A DNA stretch of 64,000 nucleotides, taken from Aliiglaciecola sp. LCG003. Its GTDB lineage: Bacteria; Pseudomonadota; Gammaproteobacteria; Enterobacterales; Alteromonadaceae. The position numbers and the translations under genes were made by a program. This document shows, piece by piece, positions 54,527 to 64,000 of this stretch (positions are counted from its first letter, which is position 1; each line of letters opens with the position of its first letter). The DNA lies in the NCBI RefSeq assembly GCF_030316135.1, contig NZ_CP128185.1, positions 3,162,001 to 3,226,000 on the forward strand, written 5' to 3'. The notes beneath the pieces are model-generated. The model worked only from the letters and a program-made list of their open reading frames with translations. It made no database searches and was not told the DNA's origin.

Positions 54527-55645
54527 TTACCAATTGGGATTATTGGGTAACTTAGGGTCAAATTGGTGTTTACCAACTAGTTGATCACGTAAAGATAAAA
54601 ACAATTTAATAACAAAATGCTTAAATAAAATAGATGTTGGCATTTTAATCCAATGGCCGCGCAGATAGACAATGTTTTTAGCAACTTTATGTCGACGACC
54701 CAATACCTGATCATGCTCAGGTGCCACCGCAGGAATAAAAGCGTTTTCTAACAACCAAGCCTGACGTTTCGACAACGGGAAGTTAGCTACAAATTGCTGG
54801 GCGATTTCAGGCAATAATATTTCACTGTAGTATTGTATTGAACGCAAACAACATAAGGTCTCGAAGTTGAATCCGGTTTGCTTTGATAAATCTAATAGTT
54901 TCAACCAAAACGCATCATCGCCAAATTCTTCAATCAGAAGCAGTATATCGAGCATATCTCGCATCCAACTCGAACTATCTTCATTGGCGAACATATGAAT
55001 AATACTGTGCATCACCGTGGAGGCTGGATCTAAAACAAAGCATCCATTTTGAGTCTTCTGTCTAGATGCAATGAATGATGATACATCAGGAGAACGGCCA
55101 CTAATAGGCGGATACAGATTATGATGCATGTCAACCACTGTAGCGCGGTTCAAGTGAATTAATGGTGGGATTTCATGGGCCCATTGGCGATAATATTTCT
55201 CATCATAATCACTCAAAGGTTCTGATTTCCAGCGGCGTGACTTTAAATGGGCTTCGGCTTTGGCTAGGTCCTGCTGATTAACCAACACATCAATATCAGA
55301 ACATATTCTGCCTCGGCTATTGCTACTGTCACGCAAAGTATATCCCGCACCCTTCAAAAATATGGCGGTGACATCAATTTCTTCGAATAGCAAGCGTAGT
55401 TCAGACGCTTCAAAATTGATTTGTAGTGCTTGTCGGTCGGCATAGACTTGCGCCGAATTTAGGTGTTTTTGGGCGAATTCCGGATACTGATTAAGACATC
55501 CATGCCGTTGTGCGCTGTGATACAAACTGGCCAGGACTTTTGCTTCTCGCAGAATAAAAATCACCTCTTGCCAGTACGATAAACTGTAATCTACTCCTAC
55601 CTTAGGCTCCAATAGCAAGCTAAATAAACTACGGGTATCGATCAT
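54527..55645 (-). CDS. Nucleotidyltransferase-family protein of the HPr-rel-A operon
   Basis: 372 residues resembling the uncharacterised nucleotidyltransferase family PF14907. The polymerase-beta-like active site is FLKGAGYTLRDS...RICSDIDVLV near residues 95-125, with the DxD pair in SDIDVLV. The true start is the ATG at 55645, overlapping the kinase stop in a classic ATGA, so the two are translationally coupled. Whether it moves a nucleotide or a sugar is unknown. Last gene of a four-gene operon. Confidence 0.75.
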   Translation of the reverse strand: MIDTRSLFSLLLEPKVGVDYSLSYWQEVIFILREAKVLASLYHSAQRHGCLNQYPEFAQKHLNSAQVYADRQALQINFEASELRLLFEEIDVTAIFLKGAGYTLRDSSNSRGRICSDIDVLVNQQDLAKAEAHLKSRRWKSEPLSDYDEKYYRQWAHEIPPLIHLNRATVVDMHHNLYPPISGRSPDVSSFIASRQKTQNGCFVLDPASTVMHSIIHMFANEDSSSWMRDMLDILLLIEEFGDDAFWLKLLDLSKQTGFNFETLCCLRSIQYYSEILLPEIAQQFVANFPLSKRQAWLLENAFIPAVAPEHDQVLGRRHKVAKNIVYLRGHWIKMPTSILFKHFVIKLFLSLRDQLVGKHQFDPKLPNNPNW

Positions 55646-56499
55646 CGGCAACTCTCAATAATGTCTTCAGTTAGAAAATCATCCACATCTGCGACATTAT
55701 CGTATTCGATTTCAAAATGAGCGGTATTGCGAATAATTTTATCTACCGTCTCGAAACCTTTTTTGGCTAACACATTGTAATTAAATGCATTCTTACTCAG
55801 CACATTGAAAGCATCTAAGTGGCTTAATTGATAAATGGTCAGCTCTGTATTAGCCCGATATTTAGGAAAAACTACAGCGACTATGGGCACCGGAATGAGT
55901 GACTGGTAACGCTGCCAATCCATGACTTTAACGTGGGCCACATCACCTTTTTGAGTATCTCGACAAATTGGTGTGAAATTAGCTGCTGGGTGCCAAGATT
56001 TAACTAATTCAATAGAGTTATTTTTTAAGCAGACGGGCCGATATAAAGGTGACACTTGGCCACTTTGAGTATCAATAACCGCCATCTCATCTGAATAAGT
56101 TGACCATCCGGCTAGGCCTAAATAGGCCGTTAAGGTACTTTTACCTGAGCCTGGCAATGCCGGGAAAATTATCGCTTTACCATTTTTAACTAACACCGCA
56201 GCGTGGATCAACAACTTATTGTATTCGTGTGCTGCGATACACCAATTCATTCCCCACTCTAATACTGCCGCAGCTTGGGAAACAGGCAAGGGTTTAAAAG
56301 GTGAATGCTGATCAGAGAAAAAGCTAACTTGGGGTTTGATAAAACGTCGAACTAGGGATTCAAAAATGATGCGGATTTTAAAATCCACAGGTTGGTCTAA
56401 CTCAGGCACGTCTCCGTATATTATTTTCACCGCCTCATCGACATGCGGCGCCTGCGAGCAATAGTCAAAATGATAAAGGCCAGTATGGATTCGTAGCAT
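55642..56499 (-). CDS. HprK-related kinase A
   Basis: 285 residues. The P-loop IFPALPGSGKSTLTAYL near residue 110 and the acidic YSDEMAVID near 138 match HPr kinase/phosphorylase, but the N-terminal HprK domain and the rest of the C-terminal sequence differ, as in the TIGR-defined HprK-related kinase A of HPr-rel-A systems. No HPr protein is encoded nearby. The target is unknown; the neighbouring Tat-signal protein or a peptide bound by the PqqD-like protein are candidates. It starts directly after the PqqD stop. Confidence 0.8.
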   Translation of the reverse strand: MLRIHTGLYHFDYCSQAPHVDEAVKIIYGDVPELDQPVDFKIRIIFESLVRRFIKPQVSFFSDQHSPFKPLPVSQAAAVLEWGMNWCIAAHEYNKLLIHAAVLVKNGKAIIFPALPGSGKSTLTAYLGLAGWSTYSDEMAVIDTQSGQVSPLYRPVCLKNNSIELVKSWHPAANFTPICRDTQKGDVAHVKVMDWQRYQSLIPVPIVAVVFPKYRANTELTIYQLSHLDAFNVLSKNAFNYNVLAKKGFETVDKIIRNTAHFEIEYDNVADVDDFLTEDIIESCR

Positions 56500-56826
56500 T
56501 TAAACCTGTTCCCGCAGCACTTTGCGCTCGATTAATTGCTGTAAGGTATGCTCAGCAGTATCAGTGCTTAGCTCAAGCCATTCAATTAAATTTAACAGGG
56601 TTATGCTTGCGGGAATCGGCACTGCAATGAGATCGGCTTTCACAGTGCCTTGAGCATGGAGAAAAGTAGTATCACCATTGTAGGCGTTATAAATCGCTAT
56701 GCCACTTCCGTCCTGTAACCAAGTAACTACAGACCCCGCTACTACGGCATAATGTTTGTCAGATAAATGAGTCAACGAGTAATCGTACTGCTTACACAGG
56801 TTTCCACTGAGTGGATGCGGTTCCAT
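56500..56826 (-). CDS. PqqD-like peptide chaperone of the HPr-rel-A system
   Basis: 108 residues with the winged-helix pattern of PqqD-type RiPP precursor-recognition elements (SLTHLSDKHYAVVAGSVVTWL, later LLNLIEWLELSTDTAEHTLQQLIERKVL). PqqD relatives bind leader peptides, so a peptide or protein substrate is expected. The ATG at 56826 overlaps the end of the Tat-signal gene by 35 bp; a TTG one codon earlier is less likely. The next gene follows with no gap. Confidence 0.75.
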   Translation of the reverse strand: MEPHPLSGNLCKQYDYSLTHLSDKHYAVVAGSVVTWLQDGSGIAIYNAYNGDTTFLHAQGTVKADLIAVPIPASITLLNLIEWLELSTDTAEHTLQQLIERKVLREQV

Positions 56827-57511
56827 CAAAGCCTAAATCATAATCGCTGATACCTAAACTACTAGTTCTGAAGGTTTGGTCGTTACGACTTAACATTTGC
56901 CCCGTACTAGCCGCATGATTTTCTATGTACCAATATAAGAACACTTGCTCAGTCAACTCTTGAGCTTGATGGTCGCCATGGTAGCCGTCATAAAAGCCAA
57001 AAAAGGCATTTAGATATACAGCAGCTAATTTGGAATAAATACCTGATGAACCAGCTTCCCATGTATCTAACGCGCCACGGCAGGTTTTATTTATTGGATT
57101 GAGTTCTTGTGGCAACCTCAAAACACTATTCATGCAAGTGTTTATGACAGATGTATATTTTTCACATTCAGCTCGGTATTCTCTTTCTTTCCAGCTCGAG
57201 TCTCTGTAGCGGTTATCATAAATTTCTTTTTTCTTGGCTTTCAAACTAAGGAAGCAATCTTCGTAGTGGTTGTCCCAATCCTTCCATTGAATGGGATGCA
57301 TACCATTACCTAAATCAGGTATGGTACAGGTGTGGCGTCCGGCATTTTGTGACAAATTACCTGACATCGCGCCAGAAACAGCACAGGTGCCCCAGACCGA
57401 TTTTGCCGGAAGACTCGCAATAACCGCGCCCGTTGCCGTTTTCTTCAAAAAATTACGGCGCTTTTTCACAACGGAAACATCCTTTGTAGTTGTCTTGTTG
57501 AATTCATTCAT
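56792..57511 (-). CDS. Twin-arginine-signal, cysteine-containing protein heading the HPr-rel-A operon
   Basis: 239 residues, not recognised beyond its signal. Residues 16-41 look like a Tat signal: KKRRNFLKK, a hydrophobic stretch (TGAVIASLPA), then a cleavage-like region. The mature part has six Cys (43, 62, 86, 116, 126, 144) and is rich in Trp/Tyr/Asn. Its 3' end overlaps the PqqD-like gene by 35 bp, so it is tightly coupled and may be the modified substrate. A sigma-54-type promoter lies about 60 bp upstream. No catalytic motif was seen. Confidence 0.7.
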   Translation of the reverse strand: MNEFNKTTTKDVSVVKKRRNFLKKTATGAVIASLPAKSVWGTCAVSGAMSGNLSQNAGRHTCTIPDLGNGMHPIQWKDWDNHYEDCFLSLKAKKKEIYDNRYRDSSWKEREYRAECEKYTSVINTCMNSVLRLPQELNPINKTCRGALDTWEAGSSGIYSKLAAVYLNAFFGFYDGYHGDHQAQELTEQVFLYWYIENHAASTGQMLSRNDQTFRTSSLGISDYDLGFDGTASTQWKPV

Positions 57512-57571
57512 TGATTAAAACCCATTTTTTGCGACTTCAAAGCGCAGTTTACAATCTATAACTTAATCACA

Positions 57572-57586
57572 GCAAGAACCGCACCA
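57572..57586 (-). promoter_or_regulatory. Sigma-54 promoter of the HPr-rel-A operon
   Basis: Minus strand TGGTGCG-N4-TTGCT fits TGGYRYR-N4-TTGCW at every specified position, with the GG and GC at the required spacing. It lies 60 bp upstream of the Tat-signal gene. An enhancer-binding activator of PrsR type would be needed and is not in the window. Confidence 0.68.
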
Positions 57587-57657
57587 AATCAGCAACCACT
57601 TGATTTAGCTAATCTTAATTAAAGCAATAGCCCATAAGTGTAAAGATATTTGACATA

Positions 57658-58431
57658 CTATTTAAGACTAACTTTTGCTTGTTTGAGTAATTCACGAACA
57701 TATTTTACAGGTATTGCATAGGTAATACCACTAGGCTCTGATAAAACCGCCTCTTTAGTTGTTTTCACAAAGACCTTGTTGATCACCGCAACGACTTTTC
57801 CTTGGTCTACCTCATACACAGCACTACCGCTATTACCTGGGTATGCAGTCGCATCCATCTGATAAATATAGTATGGATCTCGCAGCCGTCGTAAGGTATT
57901 TACATCAAGTTGACTAGAGTGACTGCTAGGAATAATAATCGGAGTCGACGCCGCCATAATCCCTTTATGAGTTACCGGATAGTGACCTAAAATTGCTCCA
58001 ATCGGAAATCCAGTAAATGCCACTTCGGTGCCATCGTCGAGCAAATTATTATCTGCCAATTGCATAGGTTTTAGTTTTTCACTTATCTTTAGCAATGCCA
58101 AATCATGTAGTTCATCTATCTCGACAACTGTAGCTTCGAGTGCTTTGGGTTGTCTGCCCGTTCCGACAAAAACCACCCTTTTCTGACGGCTATTTTCCTT
58201 TAATGGAGTGCTGATAACATGATGGTTAGTAATAATATAACTGCCGTCTGCGACGGCGAAACCAGTCCCCTGTAGACTAGCTCTTGGCGAATTTATCGGG
58301 TCGAAAACACCAATACCTACCACTGATTCTTTTACTTTTTTAACCGTATCTACAATGCTATGCGCCAAGCTAAGATTTGGTGCACATAACAGGACTAAAA
58401 ATCCTATAGCCAGGTAGCTAAACTTAGACAA
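57658..58431 (-). CDS. Secreted trypsin-like serine protease
   Basis: 257 residues with a Sec signal peptide (about residues 1-23, ending SLAHS). Chymotrypsin-fold catalytic triad: His in IITNHHVIS near residue 71, Asp in ELHDLALLKI near 108, Ser in AYPGNSGSAVYEV near 197. No PDZ domain follows, unlike DegP. TTG start. The Tat-signal operon begins downstream on the same strand, but after its own promoter. Confidence 0.82.
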   Translation of the reverse strand: MSKFSYLAIGFLVLLCAPNLSLAHSIVDTVKKVKESVVGIGVFDPINSPRASLQGTGFAVADGSYIITNHHVISTPLKENSRQKRVVFVGTGRQPKALEATVVEIDELHDLALLKISEKLKPMQLADNNLLDDGTEVAFTGFPIGAILGHYPVTHKGIMAASTPIIIPSSHSSQLDVNTLRRLRDPYYIYQMDATAYPGNSGSAVYEVDQGKVVAVINKVFVKTTKEAVLSEPSGITYAIPVKYVRELLKQAKVSLK

Positions 58432-59479: not shown

Positions 59480-60379
59480 TTATGCACCAACGATGGAGGC
59501 AAGTGGTAACAGCACAATTTGCGCGGTAAATAGCGGGGTATTCTGCTGCACATAACCGACACACACATGACTGACCTTTTGTTGGTCACCTTCAACCTTA
59601 GTTTCTGGGCTAACCACTATATTCAACACATCATTACTTTTAAGGCTAGCTAATTGCTTCTTATCAATGCAAAGTTTGTGCGACGCATAAATCATTGGAT
59701 TTTTCACCAAATCATGGCCTATGGCCTGCGCCCGCTCGAGTAACGCTGAAGAGACTAAACTAAGGGGATACATTTGCGGAAATTTAACCCTATCTGAAAA
59801 TTCGTCAATATAGTGGGATTGCTCGGCGAACGCACTGGTCAGAAAGTTCTTTGCATTCCCCACAATCATATATTTGCGTTTAAGGAAACAGCCACTACTT
59901 TGGTGAAACGAGCGGTCCGCACGTCGGCCCCAATCTACATCCAAAGGAATCTCTGCAGGCAACAAAACCGTATTAAATTCTGATTCACGTTTAAAGCCCA
60001 ATATCACCGCTTTATCATTGGCCTTGAGCAGTAAACGATTTGAATACAACTTGCCATTTTGGTTTTGACTATGTTTACCTGACTTCACGTCTAAATGAAG
60101 TTCATCACCTGCAACCACTACACCTGCAAAGGTTAGCTCAAACGCACTAAAAGGAAAATCATCTCGGTGCAGTTGCTGCTGTTCATGGTTTTCAATTTCC
60201 GTCTGTTCCATTTGGGTTTCAATAAAACAACCTAATTGGAAGCCTAGTGCTATAGGACCATTAAATGGATTGTGTTTAATCCAATTCCATCGATTTTTAT
60301 CATGGAATAAATTGAAATCGTCGGTAGAGTTTCTAGCCACTTCAATATGTATTTGGGATAGCCGATGAGGTTTCAACAT
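59480..60379 (-). CDS. Double hotdog-fold (MaoC-like) protein
   Basis: 299 residues. The N-terminal part resembles the MaoC hydratase signature: STDDFNLFHDKNRW followed by NPFNGPIALGFQLG near residues 18-48, where hydratases carry Asp and His in D-x-N-x-x-H-x-D. Here the spacing is loose, so activity is uncertain. A second, weaker hotdog-like half begins near residue 170. It is divergent from the exosortase-associated acyltransferase, suggesting an acyl-chain-related role; this is inference. Strong ribosome binding site GGAGAT. Confidence 0.55.
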   Translation of the reverse strand: MLKPHRLSQIHIEVARNSTDDFNLFHDKNRWNWIKHNPFNGPIALGFQLGCFIETQMEQTEIENHEQQQLHRDDFPFSAFELTFAGVVVAGDELHLDVKSGKHSQNQNGKLYSNRLLLKANDKAVILGFKRESEFNTVLLPAEIPLDVDWGRRADRSFHQSSGCFLKRKYMIVGNAKNFLTSAFAEQSHYIDEFSDRVKFPQMYPLSLVSSALLERAQAIGHDLVKNPMIYASHKLCIDKKQLASLKSNDVLNIVVSPETKVEGDQQKVSHVCVGYVQQNTPLFTAQIVLLPLASIVGA

Positions 60380-60564: not shown

Positions 60565-61302
60565 ATGACTGAAATTTCAGAAGAAAGCATTTCTAGTCAT
60601 TTCTCCGACTATTTAAGGCCAGTATTTTCAGAAACTCAGCAACATAAAAATCAGTCTTTTGAGATCCGTCATCAGGTTTATTGTGAAGAATTGCATTTCG
60701 AACCGGAGCGAGATGATAGATTAGAAACGGACGAGTTTGATAAGCATGCCCTGCATTGTCTGATTCAGCATAAATCCAGTGAGCTGTTTGCTGGCACCGT
60801 CAGATTGATTGTTTCAGATAACCCAAGTCAACTGCTGCCGATAGAACTATATTGTAAAGAAGCCATTCAGCGCCCTGACTTGTTTCCCGATAATTTTGCT
60901 CGGAATGACATTTGTGAAATTTCAAGATTAGCCGTTCCAGCCCAATTCAGACGTCGTAAAATGGATAATTACGAAGGGGCAGCGATAGGTATGATCAATA
61001 AAGAAATATACTCTGAAACAGAATTAAGGTGTTTCCCCTTTATTGCGGTAGGTTTATATTTGTCGGCCACTTCAATTTTATTGAAGAAAAATATCAATCA
61101 TTGCTTTGTTATGGTTGAACCTCGTCTAGCCAGAAGCATGCGTTTTGTAGGATTGCCCTTTGAGCAAATTGGACCTGTCATTGACTACCACGGCAAAAGA
61201 GCTCCCTACTACATCCAACCTAAACAAGTTGAGCAGAATTTAAAACAAGACTTTAAAGCCTTATTACAAAATATTGATATTGAATTACAACCCCAGATTT
61301 GA
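60565..61302 (+). CDS. PEP-CTERM/exosortase system-associated acyltransferase
   Basis: 245 residues of the GNAT-like, LuxI-related family found with exosortase systems. Typical segments are FEIRHQVYCEELHFEP near residue 33, CEISRLAVPAQFRRRK near 115, and the C-terminal MRFVGLPFEQIGPVIDYHGKRAPYYI. The family is thought to use an acyl carrier; its acceptor is unknown. Ribosome binding site AGGGAAG. The ThiF-like gene follows after 130 bp. Confidence 0.88.
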   Translation: MTEISEESISSHFSDYLRPVFSETQQHKNQSFEIRHQVYCEELHFEPERDDRLETDEFDKHALHCLIQHKSSELFAGTVRLIVSDNPSQLLPIELYCKEAIQRPDLFPDNFARNDICEISRLAVPAQFRRRKMDNYEGAAIGMINKEIYSETELRCFPFIAVGLYLSATSILLKKNINHCFVMVEPRLARSMRFVGLPFEQIGPVIDYHGKRAPYYIQPKQVEQNLKQDFKALLQNIDIELQPQI

Positions 61303-61432
61303 GGTATATCAGGTCGCTGAGCTCTTTTCTTATATGTGAATAGTATCGATGATAGCGATAATATGAGATCGCCAAGTGACAGATAGCCCCTATTGATTGG
61401 TTACTGCCCTAACAAACATAGAGAGACTAATA

Positions 61433-62308
61433 ATGTTTGACTACAAAGAAGCATTTTCTAGAAACATTGGTTGGATGACTGATGAAGAGCAAGAAATTCT
61501 TCGCAACAGCAAAGTGGCTATTGGTGGTTTGGGAGGTGTCGGCGGTGATCACGCGATTGTTTGCGCCAGACTAGGTATTGGCAATTTCCATATTTCGGAT
61601 ATGGACCAATATGATTTAGTCAATTTTAATCGTCAGGCCGGTGCCTCCATGAAAACCCTTGGCTTAGAAAAATCTAAGGTAATGGAAGATATACTTGCCA
61701 ATATCAACCCGGAATCTCGTGTAAAAAATTTCGACACCGGCATTAGTGATGAAAATTTAGAGGACTTTTTAGACGGTGTGGATCTATATATAGATAGCTT
61801 GGATATCTTTGCTATGGATATTAGACGAAAAGTGTTTCAACGTTGTTATGAGAAGAATATCCCTTGCGTCACCGCTGCTCCTATGGGAATGGGAACCGCA
61901 GTGCTAGTATTTATGCCTGGAAAAATGTCTTTTGAGCAGTATTTTTGTTTAGAAGGACTCAATGAAGAAGATAAGTTTTATCACTTAATTATGGGCTTAT
62001 CGCCAGCAATGCTGCAACTAAGTTATCTAGTTGACAGAACGAAAGTCGACTTTTGGCATGGGAAAGTTCCATCGACCCCAATGGGAATTTCATTAGCGGC
62101 AGGCGTTCTAAATAGTAACGTATTGAAAATCCTGTTAAATCGTGGAGAAGTCCTGTGTGCCCCCCATGGATGGCATGTAGATGCTTACAAAAACAAATCC
62201 AAACGAACATGGCGTCCTTGGGGGAATAAAAACCCTATACAGAAGTACATCATGTTTCCCATGGTTAAAAAGGCCATAGGCAAGCCCAAACCAGCGGATA
62301 TTAGCTAA
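61433..62308 (+). CDS. ThiF/E1-like adenylyltransferase
   Basis: 291 residues from the ATG at 61433 (MFDYKEAFSRNIGWMTDEEQ); an upstream TTG is rejected. The E1 fold is clear: nucleotide loop AIGGLGGVGGDHAIVC near residue 33, and SDMDQYDLVNFNRQ near 55 with the conserved Asp and Asn-x-x-Arg-Gln. The usual zinc Cys pairs are missing. No ThiS/MoaD/ubiquitin-like partner is encoded nearby, so the acceptor is unknown. It probably works with the acyltransferase upstream. Confidence 0.86.
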   Translation: MFDYKEAFSRNIGWMTDEEQEILRNSKVAIGGLGGVGGDHAIVCARLGIGNFHISDMDQYDLVNFNRQAGASMKTLGLEKSKVMEDILANINPESRVKNFDTGISDENLEDFLDGVDLYIDSLDIFAMDIRRKVFQRCYEKNIPCVTAAPMGMGTAVLVFMPGKMSFEQYFCLEGLNEEDKFYHLIMGLSPAMLQLSYLVDRTKVDFWHGKVPSTPMGISLAAGVLNSNVLKILLNRGEVLCAPHGWHVDAYKNKSKRTWRPWGNKNPIQKYIMFPMVKKAIGKPKPADIS

Positions 62309-62652
62309 AATAATAATAGCTTACGAACGGCCCCAAAGCGCTGTTGTGGAGCTAAAGCATGAAACTAAACATTATGTGCTTCTAATCATTGTTTAATTCA
62401 CACACTTGACTCTAGCGGCTAGGTTTAACATTTGATGTGTTATCTTAGCTGCCAATCTATCCTCTCGATCCTAGCCTACTTTGTTCTTAAATGATTGTTT
62501 TTCTTCAGGCTTCTTACAGCGTCTCTTAACCCGGTTCATTTTAACTTGTTTAAAAATAGGGCCTATAATGGATAGAAGTATTGGCTAAGCTACTTTGAGC
62601 GGAAAATAAAAAACCCGGCATAAGCCGGGTTTTTTAACACTTTTAAAGTATC
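62309..62652. other. Convergent intergenic region with terminator
   Basis: 344 bp between the ThiF-like gene and the PEP-CTERM gene, reading toward each other. Apart from the terminator at 62605-62636 nothing was recognised. Confidence 0.6.
62605..62636. terminator. Terminator of the PEP-CTERM gene
   Basis: AAAAAACCCGGC, 4-nt loop, GCCGGGTTTTTT. It is symmetrical and works for the minus-strand gene ending at 62653. Confidence 0.9.
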
Positions 62653-63483
62653 TTAGTTTTTACGTCTGCGACCTGCGCCAGCCAAACCTAAAAGACCAAG
62701 ACCTAATACCGCCAAGCTTGAAGGCTCAGGGATTTGGAAAGATAATGAACCGTCGTGGTTACCAGCCAATGTGAAGGTACCATCGTTATTATCAATAACT
62801 GTCACGAAACGCGGATCAGTGTTGAAGTCAACAAAACCGAAACCGTCAATTTCTTGATCAACCAAATCAGCTGCAGAACCTTTATCGAAGTTCAATACGT
62901 CACCAGCTGCAATACCGTTTACCATACCAGCACCAACTGAAGAAATCATAGTTCTAAGCGAAGGACCACCTAAGCTCTGTGTCACACTCAAGAAATCAAG
63001 AGTGAACAATTCTACAAACTCGCTAGTGTTAGCAAAGCCTGGCGTGAAATAATAGAAAGTGATTTCACCAGTATTATAATCTGTCGCTAAGCCAGGGCCT
63101 AAGGTACCAGATAGTTCGAATTGGAAGGTTAAACCCCAGTTACCGAAACCATTGTGGCTTTCAGTACCGAATTGATTTGGTAAAAACCCAGCAACGGCAT
63201 TGTTAGCGATATTAGCGCCAGCAGCAGGGCCACTGATGAATCCACCTGTAGTAGTGATAGCATCACCCGCAGTTGGACCATTCATATCAGCATCAGTTAC
63301 CAATGTTGAAGACGAATAGTTATAAGACATTTGCTCTAACCAACCAGTAGTTGTTGCACCAGCAGCTTGATTTTTCAGGTTATCACCGAAATCAGCACCT
63401 GCATCAATGTAAAATGCATCAGCCATGGCTACCGAAGAACCAGTTGCTAAAATCATCCCTGCTATTAAAGACTTGTAATTCAT
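62653..63483 (-). CDS. PEP-CTERM sorting domain protein
   Basis: 276 residues with a Sec signal peptide (MNYKSLIAGMILATGSSVAMA) and a C-terminal PEP-CTERM signal: PEPSSLAVLGLGLLGLAG followed by RRRKN. Exosortase cuts at the PEP motif so the protein is released to the surface or exopolysaccharide matrix. The middle part is Gly/Asn/Thr-rich with few charges and is not recognised. No exosortase gene is in the window. A sigma-54-like promoter lies upstream. Confidence 0.9.
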   Translation of the reverse strand: MNYKSLIAGMILATGSSVAMADAFYIDAGADFGDNLKNQAAGATTTGWLEQMSYNYSSSTLVTDADMNGPTAGDAITTTGGFISGPAAGANIANNAVAGFLPNQFGTESHNGFGNWGLTFQFELSGTLGPGLATDYNTGEITFYYFTPGFANTSEFVELFTLDFLSVTQSLGGPSLRTMISSVGAGMVNGIAAGDVLNFDKGSAADLVDQEIDGFGFVDFNTDPRFVTVIDNNDGTFTLAGNHDGSLSFQIPEPSSLAVLGLGLLGLAGAGRRRKN

Positions 63484-63555
63484 ATTTATTCTCCAGCGAG
63501 TAAGTTAAAGTTGTTAAAGCTATTTTGCATGTCTAGCTTTCCATGATTGTATAAA

Positions 63556-63570
63556 GCATATTACGGGCCA
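63556..63570 (-). promoter_or_regulatory. Sigma-54-like promoter of the PEP-CTERM gene
   Basis: Minus strand TGGCCC-N5-ATGC, matching TGGCAC-N5-TTGC at all but two positions, with correct GG/GC spacing. The start codon is about 70 bp downstream. PEP-CTERM genes are known RpoN/PrsR targets in Zoogloea. Confidence 0.6.
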
Positions 63571-63660
63571 ACTTTTAACTCACTGTTTTTACGTTGTTTT
63601 TTATTTATGACTGTTGGGGAGTGTTAAAAATGCTGACACTTTAATTACCCCCAAGTGCTA

Positions 63661-64000
63661 TTATTGATTCGCTTTTTGAGCCGCTTCGTAATGTATTCGA
63701 TAGTCCTGGTTACTTGGCTGCAAATCAAATGCTTTTTTACTAACTTCTAATGCTCTTTTCAGATCACCATTTTTCAATAATGCGACACCTAGAGTATCCA
63801 GCATCATAGGGTTTTCAGGTCGCAGCGCTACCGCTTTTTCTGCATAATCCACCGCTTTAACTGTCTCCCCTGTTTGCCCGTACAGCCAGCCTAAATTGTT
63901 TAGTACAATTATATTTTCCGGTAAATACTCAACTAAGAATACATAGTGTTCAATTGCTTTTTCAGGGAATTCCTGCATATACATTTCGGCTAATCTTGCT
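63661..64000 (-). CDS. TPR-repeat protein, C-terminal part, probably PrsT (cut by window edge)
   Basis: At least two tetratricopeptide repeats are visible (VLNNLGWLYGQTGETVKAVDYAEKAVALRP and MLDTLGVALLKNGDLKRALEVSKKAFDLQP), ending at a normal stop. The frame stays open to the right edge, so the N-terminus lies outside and any internal Met is not the start. Because a PEP-CTERM gene follows directly, the TPR protein PrsT of exosortase systems is the likely identity, but the diagnostic part is missing. Confidence 0.65.
   Translation of the reverse strand, partial: ARLAEMYMQEFPEKAIEHYVFLVEYLPENIIVLNNLGWLYGQTGETVKAVDYAEKAVALRPENPMMLDTLGVALLKNGDLKRALEVSKKAFDLQPSNQDYRIHYEAAQKANQ

Follow-up and report, generated by a model that had tools for sequence, protein, structure and literature searches.

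A Tat-signal protein as the candidate substrate of HPr-rel-A kinase cassettes in Aliiglaciecola sp. LCG003 and related bacteria

The stretch of DNA analysed here (the window, 64,000 nucleotides) corresponds to positions 3,162,001 to 3,226,000 of the 4.41-Mb single-contig genome of Aliiglaciecola sp. LCG003. Four genes lie leftward between positions 54527 and 57511, and all four open reading frames were found on the minus strand where a first-pass annotation had placed them. They encode a Tat-signal protein of 239 residues (56792..57511), a PqqD-like protein (56500..56829), an HprK-related kinase A (55642..56499) and an NTP_transf_5 nucleotidyltransferase (54527..55651, with a likely ATG start at 55645). 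The overlaps of 35, 0 and 4 bp given previously hold when pqqD starts at the ATG at 56826 and the nucleotidyltransferase gene at the ATG at 55645, the pqqD and kinase genes being exactly adjacent. With a TTG start at 56829 the overlap between the Tat-signal gene and pqqD would be 38 bp, and with an in-frame TTG at 56775 there would be a gap of 16 bp and a better length fit to close relatives; the start of pqqD is uncertain among these three positions. The single shared promoter that had been proposed was not confirmed, as a consensus scan gave no sigma-70 site in the gap at 57512-57657, where a promoter is still possible; over the scanned region, 7 such sites were counted, compared with 12.0 in shuffled sequences.

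The family names given earlier to the two enzymes were borne out: the kinase matched TIGR04352 with 289.9 bits (cut-off 200) and the nucleotidyltransferase matched PF14907 with 131 bits (cut-off 31.2). The catalytic residues of the kinase were retained in 146 sequences. In the P-loop (residues 117-122; 56134..56151, minus strand), G119, K120 and T122 were present in all 146, G117 in 145 and S121 in 144, and Asp137 and Glu138 (56086..56091, minus strand), K159, K184, G185 and N240 were likewise invariant. The P-loop and Asp137 aligned with the HPr(Ser) kinase structure 3tqf (E 0.006), Asp137 falling on an Asp, but the aligned stretch covered about 50 residues, and the HPr kinase/phosphorylase (HprK/P) model TIGR00679 was absent from the matches of the window kinase at E values up to 0.1. 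The catalytic residues of the nucleotidyltransferase were invariant as well (K100, G101, D119, D121 and D174, in 135 of 135 sequences), and no solved relative was found for it at E values up to 1.

The PqqD-like label stood as regards gene position and predicted fold, but not as regards profile score, as TIGR04353 (PqqD_rel_X) matched with 14.9 bits, below the cut-off of 35. The structural model (mean pLDDT 83) was composed of predicted strands and helices, and its best match in the PDB was TbiB1 in complex with a leader peptide (probability 0.89, E 0.08). TruD, the RiPP recognition element (RRE) of PbtF and PqqD were within the top ten matches, mixed with unrelated chains, and no match reached an E value of 0.001. 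On the basis of this model, the protein appears to resemble RREs most closely, although not significantly by E value.

The sequence comparisons confirmed that the four genes form an HPr-rel-A cassette, made up of the Tat-signal protein, the PqqD-like protein, the HprK-rel-A kinase and the NTP_transf_5 protein. The window has the kinase family and gene order of the named HPr-rel-A system (TIGR04352, TIGR04353), including the adjacent nucleotidyltransferase-family gene. The order is the same in a cassette on a Sphingomonas parapaucimobilis plasmid (L184), where the three enzyme genes carry the corresponding NCBI labels. It differs from the named system in that the Tat-signal protein is unlabelled and the window's PqqD-like protein falls under the TIGR04353 cut-off. 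Literature searches on HPr-rel-A, on HprK-related kinase and on PF14907, NTP_transf_5, TIGR04352 and TIGR04353 returned no description of the system among the papers searched, a search combining nucleotidyltransferase, PqqD and twin-arginine returned nothing, and none of the titles given by broader searches dealt with it; the available part of one paper (PMC1569441) mentions neither HPr nor a nucleotidyltransferase.

The Tat-signal protein of the window had no family in Pfam or NCBIfam. Its leader (residues 18-42; 57386..57460, minus strand) consists of a twin-arginine motif ahead of a hydrophobic stretch and runs to the residues SVWGT. The Tat signal announced in the first-pass annotation was thus upheld by the twin arginine, which is kept in relatives, but not by the generic model TIGR01409, which gave 13.7 bits against a cut-off of 16.7. 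The leader is followed by a motif, C43-x-x-S46-G-x-x-S50-G-N-x-S54, extending to C62 (57326..57385, minus strand), and by a helical body (residues 63-204; 56900..57325, minus strand). Block means of the AlphaFold2 pLDDT were about 44-52 over residues 1-60 and 75-97 over residues 61-200, as would be expected of a flexible tail ahead of a confident helical domain. A Foldseek search with the model of the body found no match in the PDB below an E value of 3.9, and the attempt to derive a function from this fold was abandoned.

Relatives of this protein are referred to here as class 1. Among 75 class 1 sequences, R19 and S46 were invariant, and R18, S50, S54 and N168 were conserved in at least 90%. 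Mean pairwise identity was 0.38 in the leader, 0.40 in the motif and 0.22 in the body; between the window protein and its nearest relative, the corresponding values were 0.88, 0.80 and 0.37. The six cysteines counted previously are at positions 43, 62, 86, 116, 126 and 144. The column of Ser46 held Ser in 82 of 83 class 1 rows, compared with Cys in 73 of 82 for the column of Cys43, and since a subgroup without the motif Cys retained the Ser, the Cys is not the key feature. The Cys after the leader suggested a lipoprotein, a reading dropped on inspection by eye, as the position of the Cys and the residues preceding it vary and the subgroup lacks it; the Cys was dropped as the modified residue for the same variable position and absence. 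From the conservation, we infer that Ser46 is the best candidate for a modified residue in the window protein, with Ser50 and Ser54 as alternatives. In Catenovulum sediminis (L010, 9015-9742), the Tat-signal gene was present as two overlapping ORFs, the sign of a frameshift that is either genuine or confined to the record.

The co-occurrence of the Tat-signal gene with the kinase was assessed by iterated profile searches at 81 loci, consisting of the window and the best 80 of 103 kinase relatives; the nearest kinase found in the genome collection, at 72% identity, came from Aliiglaciecola sp. M165. A relative of the Tat-signal protein was found by profile at 77 of the 81 loci, a PqqD-like ORF at 77 and the nucleotidyltransferase at 78. 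The ten gaps at the place of pqqD that gave no profile match each contained an open frame of at least 45 codons, which is weak evidence. A divergent Tat-signal protein just upstream of pqqD at another locus (L028; E 0.0013, motif seen by eye) brought the total to 78 of 81. At the other three (L044, L056 and L070), the upstream place was empty of a Tat-signal gene and the downstream place, which is used for this gene by loci related to them, lay beyond the end of the contig. The usual position was just upstream of pqqD; at 16 loci the gene followed the nucleotidyltransferase gene, and four of these loci had two tandem copies (L026, L030, L035 and L045). Paraglaciecola sp. MB-3u-78 (L073, 5031-11939) carried two divergent cassettes with different substrates, the Tat-signal genes being approximately 0.45 kb apart, and one of its two kinase ORFs was just 204 aa long.

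In a class-level sample of 369 genomes, 41 contained a TIGR04352 kinase above the cut-off. Profile A1 was built from 75 class 1 proteins, with 8 of the 83 rows omitted (near-copies, L020, one L035 copy and the two L010 pieces). In 37 of these 41 genomes, A1 had a match no more than 3 kb from the kinase; six of the matches were weak (20-28 bits) and were checked by eye. Three further genomes (G091, G213 and G303) had a different Tat-signal protein upstream of pqqD, so that the adjacent total was 40 of 41; in the remaining genome (G259), the kinase was 640 bp from the end of the contig and no substrate was obtained. All 31 A1 places with at least 80 bits across the 369 genomes were in kinase-positive genomes, and 30 of them were beside the kinase. 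The one away from it was a second class 1 copy in which the motif was intact (G296:C20). A1 also matched 15 further genomes, through the C-terminal domain alone (G080, G084, G099 and G215), through short Tat-signal peptides (G036, G101, G184, G285, G318 and G360) or weakly through the leader region (G038, G126, G158, G214 and G279).

A phylum-level sample of 398 genomes contained 61 that were TIGR04352-positive, of which 40 were fetched, four more were also in the class sample and four were tested with A4, the profile of the second substrate class described below; the class and phylum samples share some species (for example, L020 and L172). A Tat-signal protein was adjacent at 36 of the 40 phylum loci (8 of class 1, 27 of class 2 and the atypical L171). 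None was adjacent at the other four (L158, L165, L169 and L182), each of whose genomes had a class 2 substrate elsewhere. Of the four genomes tested with A4, three were positive (G385, G434 and G524), and no substrate was found with A4 in G540, which is 57% complete. In three genomes (G477, G618 and G385), pqqD was beside the Tat-signal substrate and away from the kinase; in G564, pqqD was with the kinase and the substrate elsewhere; and G438 gave no PqqD next to its substrate. At the G438 kinase locus (L158), where there was neither an adjacent pqqD nor an adjacent Tat-signal gene and the class 2 substrate was on another contig, the TIGR04352 kinase followed ORFs that by eye resembled a deacetylase, a FemAB protein and a glycosyltransferase. 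Co-occurrence, whose strictness was the check attached to the original proposal, was thus observed at 78 of 81 close loci, in 40 of 41 genomes of the class sample and, at the 40 phylum loci, as 36 adjacent genes plus 4 elsewhere. Pairing of a PqqD-like protein with another peptide elsewhere was not seen in an unsystematic look among the loci covered. Two cassettes were plasmid-borne, on Vibrio alfacsensis plasmid pVa1 (L183) and on the S. parapaucimobilis plasmid. The gene at the substrate place is annotated as a hypothetical protein in both, and the products carry the leader and motif, class 1-like in the former and class 2 in the latter.

The Tat-signal proteins fell into two classes with a common leader and a common C-x-x-S motif with an invariant Ser; the motif follows the leader in class 1 and lies near the C-terminus in class 2. 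Class 2 comprised 34 proteins of 74 to 235 aa, all 34 of which had the C-terminal motif Ser, and 31 the Cys; in the profile alignment A4 (33 rows), R39, R40 and S175 were invariant. As 10 of the 34 proteins were selected by a pattern containing the motif, its presence in those ten is partly by construction. Of the 24 class 2 proteins identified independently of the motif, 20 had the pattern C-x-x-S-[FLIVM] near the C-terminus. Fifteen of these 24 came from the phylum sample, which was fetched after the motif had first been seen, and all 15 had it; the same pattern was found in 65 of 4391 control ORFs of at least 120 aa from the same loci. A second conserved Ser directly after the leader was observed in 30 of 34, and for this reason the target Ser in class 2 is unsure. 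Profile A4 matched 19 of the 369 genomes, 15 of which had a kinase above the cut-off, although 8 of those 15 had contributed rows to A4. In the other four (G036, G184, G285 and G360), TIGR04352 matched below the cut-off with E values of about 1e-10 or better; since weak TIGR04352 matches are frequent (181 of 369 genomes at E 0.001), only the over-cut-off part of this result weighs much.

By sequence, the two classes appear little alike beyond the leader and motif. Matches of A1 to class 2 proteins stopped by model position 66 of 252, and one match of A4 to a class 1 genome (G055) was longer, covering positions 10-142 of 178. Neither the ten substrates compared with NCBIfam nor the nine compared with Pfam received a family name. 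The Tat-signal protein with its six Cys had been named as the obvious substrate candidate; as a refinement, these proteins are not one family, having just the leader and the C-x-x-S motif in common, and the Cys is dispensable. The smallest class 2 protein (74 aa, G057, locus L110) was little more than a leader and a short Ser/Cys tail. Short Tat-signal peptides of 57-105 aa with Gly-Ser soon past the leader were encoded at ten loci (L102-L108, L112, L114 and L115), and at five of these (L102, L103, L104, L105 and L107) they were near an HprK-like kinase under the TIGR04352 cut-off. Judged by sequence, they are possibly a third, peptide-sized class.

Substrate class also followed the kinase. 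In a tree of 99 kinase rows (a subsample of 139, with known duplicates removed), one branch separated the two classes with one row misplaced (L171); organism phylogeny confounds this result. Where a row had no adjacent substrate, as in four cases, its label was taken from the substrate present in another part of the genome, and L044, L056 and L070 were labelled class 1 by default, their substrate not having been seen. The PqqD-like protein and the kinase were encoded by a single ORF at three loci (L055, L056 and L070), as were the kinase and the nucleotidyltransferase at one (L160).

A close precedent for such a gene set is the tailoring of lasso peptides (PadeK, PsmK, PsmN and the B1 proteins), with which the cassette has in common an HPr-kinase homologue, a PqqD-like leader binder and a nucleotidyltransferase. 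The target in those peptides is a Ser, and the class 2 motif of the cassette is also near the C-terminus. According to the accessible portions of PMC9266682 and PMC8498205, PsmK is a kinase that (poly)phosphorylates a lasso peptide at its C-terminal Ser. For pseudomycoidin, PsmN is reported to decorate this phosphorylated Ser with one or two hexoses, although nucleotidylation followed by the action of a host glycosyltransferase was not excluded. The accessible portion of PMC5067487 reports that the PqqD-like PadeB1 binds its own leader at about 5 nM. The cassette differs in that its substrates are mostly proteins of exported type, about 120-270 aa long with a Tat-like leader; its leader resembles an export signal and not a dedicated RiPP leader, a difference from PqqD and other RREs. 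The likeness to the enzymes that tailor lasso peptides raised the possibility of a lasso-peptide cluster, which was set aside, as no lasso cyclase (asparagine-synthetase-like) or leader peptidase family was present among ten proteins scanned around the window operon.

The first-pass proposal of a modification pathway with the Tat-signal protein as substrate is supported by the co-occurrence, the shared leader and the invariant Ser, from which we infer the reaction. That the Tat-signal protein is the substrate of the HprK-rel-A system is well supported by these sequence comparisons; the chemistry, phosphorylation and extension, is a reasoned guess by analogy. In the reading that we prefer, with a probability of about 0.6, the cassette would combine a substrate with its modifiers. 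In the cytoplasm, the PqqD-like protein would bind the leader region and present the Tat-signal protein to the kinase, which would phosphorylate the motif Ser (Ser46 in the window protein, or alternatively Ser50 or Ser54). Such phospho-tailoring is expected because of the analogous lasso precedents, PsmK/PsmN and PadeB1. The nucleotidyltransferase would then extend the phosphate with a nucleotidyl group or, as the lasso peptides suggest, with a sugar. The protein would be exported by the Tat pathway, for which TatC is encoded in the window's genome, and removal of the leader would leave the modified terminus outside the cytoplasm. The cassette thus probably places a phosphate-based tag on one invariant Ser before export of the protein.

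Redox-enzyme maturation proteins act as chaperones of Tat signals, and the PqqD-like protein might likewise be a chaperone in a quality control of export, in which the kinase and nucleotidyltransferase regulate the chaperone or the timing of export and the Tat-signal protein is an unmodified cargo. This is unlikely. The leader, together with the motif, is the most conserved stretch of the protein, and the pairing of pqqD with the substrate at a site apart from the kinase (G477, G618 and G385) would suit a chaperone. However, the invariant Ser is outside the leader, near the C-terminus in class 2, and its placement tracks the kinase clades. The single PqqD-kinase ORF fits delivery to the kinase, and substrate and PqqD are apart in G438 and G564.

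It is less probable still that the genes are merely co-regulated, in which case the kinase and nucleotidyltransferase would make a nucleotide signal or some small molecule, and the Tat-signal protein would be a surface protein expressed with them. The evidence for contact between the kinase and the Tat-signal protein is indirect, and the cassette is situated among exopolysaccharide and exosortase-associated genes, both of which would allow such an arrangement, but it would leave unaccounted for the near-total co-occurrence with otherwise variable proteins that have a common leader and motif, the RRE-like partner, and the retention of the motif in the class 1 copy located elsewhere in G296. Formation of a thioether, in which phosphate on the Ser is eliminated and the Cys of C-x-x-S closes a lanthionine-like ring, has the C-x-x-S spacing of both classes and the parallel of class III lanthipeptide enzymes, which combine a kinase and a lyase, in its favour, but is very improbable given a dispensable Cys (present in 73 of 82 class 1 rows and 31 of 34 class 2 proteins) beside an invariant Ser, the lack of a match to a lyase or cyclase family in the scan of ten proteins from the surroundings of the operon, and a nucleotidyltransferase left unexplained.

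For the preferred reading of phosphate-based tailoring before export, the genomic setting makes a surface or matrix role of the cassette likely, and the modified terminus would probably serve an exopolysaccharide/exosortase surface. Exosortase (TIGR02602) was found in 38 of 41 cassette genomes compared with 79 of 328 others (Fisher p 4e-18, a value that ignores phylogeny). Where cassette and exosortase were on one contig, they were within 110 kb of each other in 12 of 16 cases; in the window's genome, the exosortase was 2 Mb from the cassette. The window cassette itself is surrounded by genes associated with exosortase and, as judged by eye, by UDP-sugar genes. Next to it, at 60565-63984, are genes for an exosortase-associated acyltransferase (TIGR03694) and for a ThiF-family protein. 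The same stretch encodes a PEP-CTERM protein, whose match to the flocculation protein PepA is below the cut-off, and what by eye looks like a TPR fragment. A more speculative and rather doubtful extension is a Tat-dependent system for anchoring proteins, in which the kinase and nucleotidyltransferase, guided by the RRE, would attach a sugar through a phosphodiester to the invariant Ser of Tat-exported proteins and so prime these proteins for covalent attachment to exopolysaccharide, as a cytoplasmic counterpart to exosortase/PEP-CTERM sorting in which the export signal is the recognition leader.

HPr-rel-A is a named system whose substrate is unlabelled in Pfam and NCBIfam, and a candidate is now proposed; because this candidate is nearly always present and has an invariant Ser, the question of the substrate is directly testable. 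If the proposal is true, RRE-guided phospho-tailoring of the lasso type extends from small peptides to full-length exported proteins, an export signal doubles as a recognition leader, and phospho-tailoring is tied to the exopolysaccharide/exosortase surface of many Pseudomonadota.

Two other genes near the cassette were recorded. A trypsin-like protease, possibly accessory, is encoded at 57658..58431 (minus strand); at 26 of 106 loci (L002, L020, L023 and L121 among them), a gene of this type was present no more than 2.7 kb from the kinase, with neither its side nor its orientation being fixed. One of the 26 is a weak match on the opposite strand, and one genome enters the count twice (L020/L172). 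Such a protease could process the exported Tat-signal protein. Positions 59480-60379 encode a protein of 299 aa, which gave no Pfam or NCBIfam match at E values up to 0.1 and had relatives at 4 of the 81 loci within the limited flanks covered.
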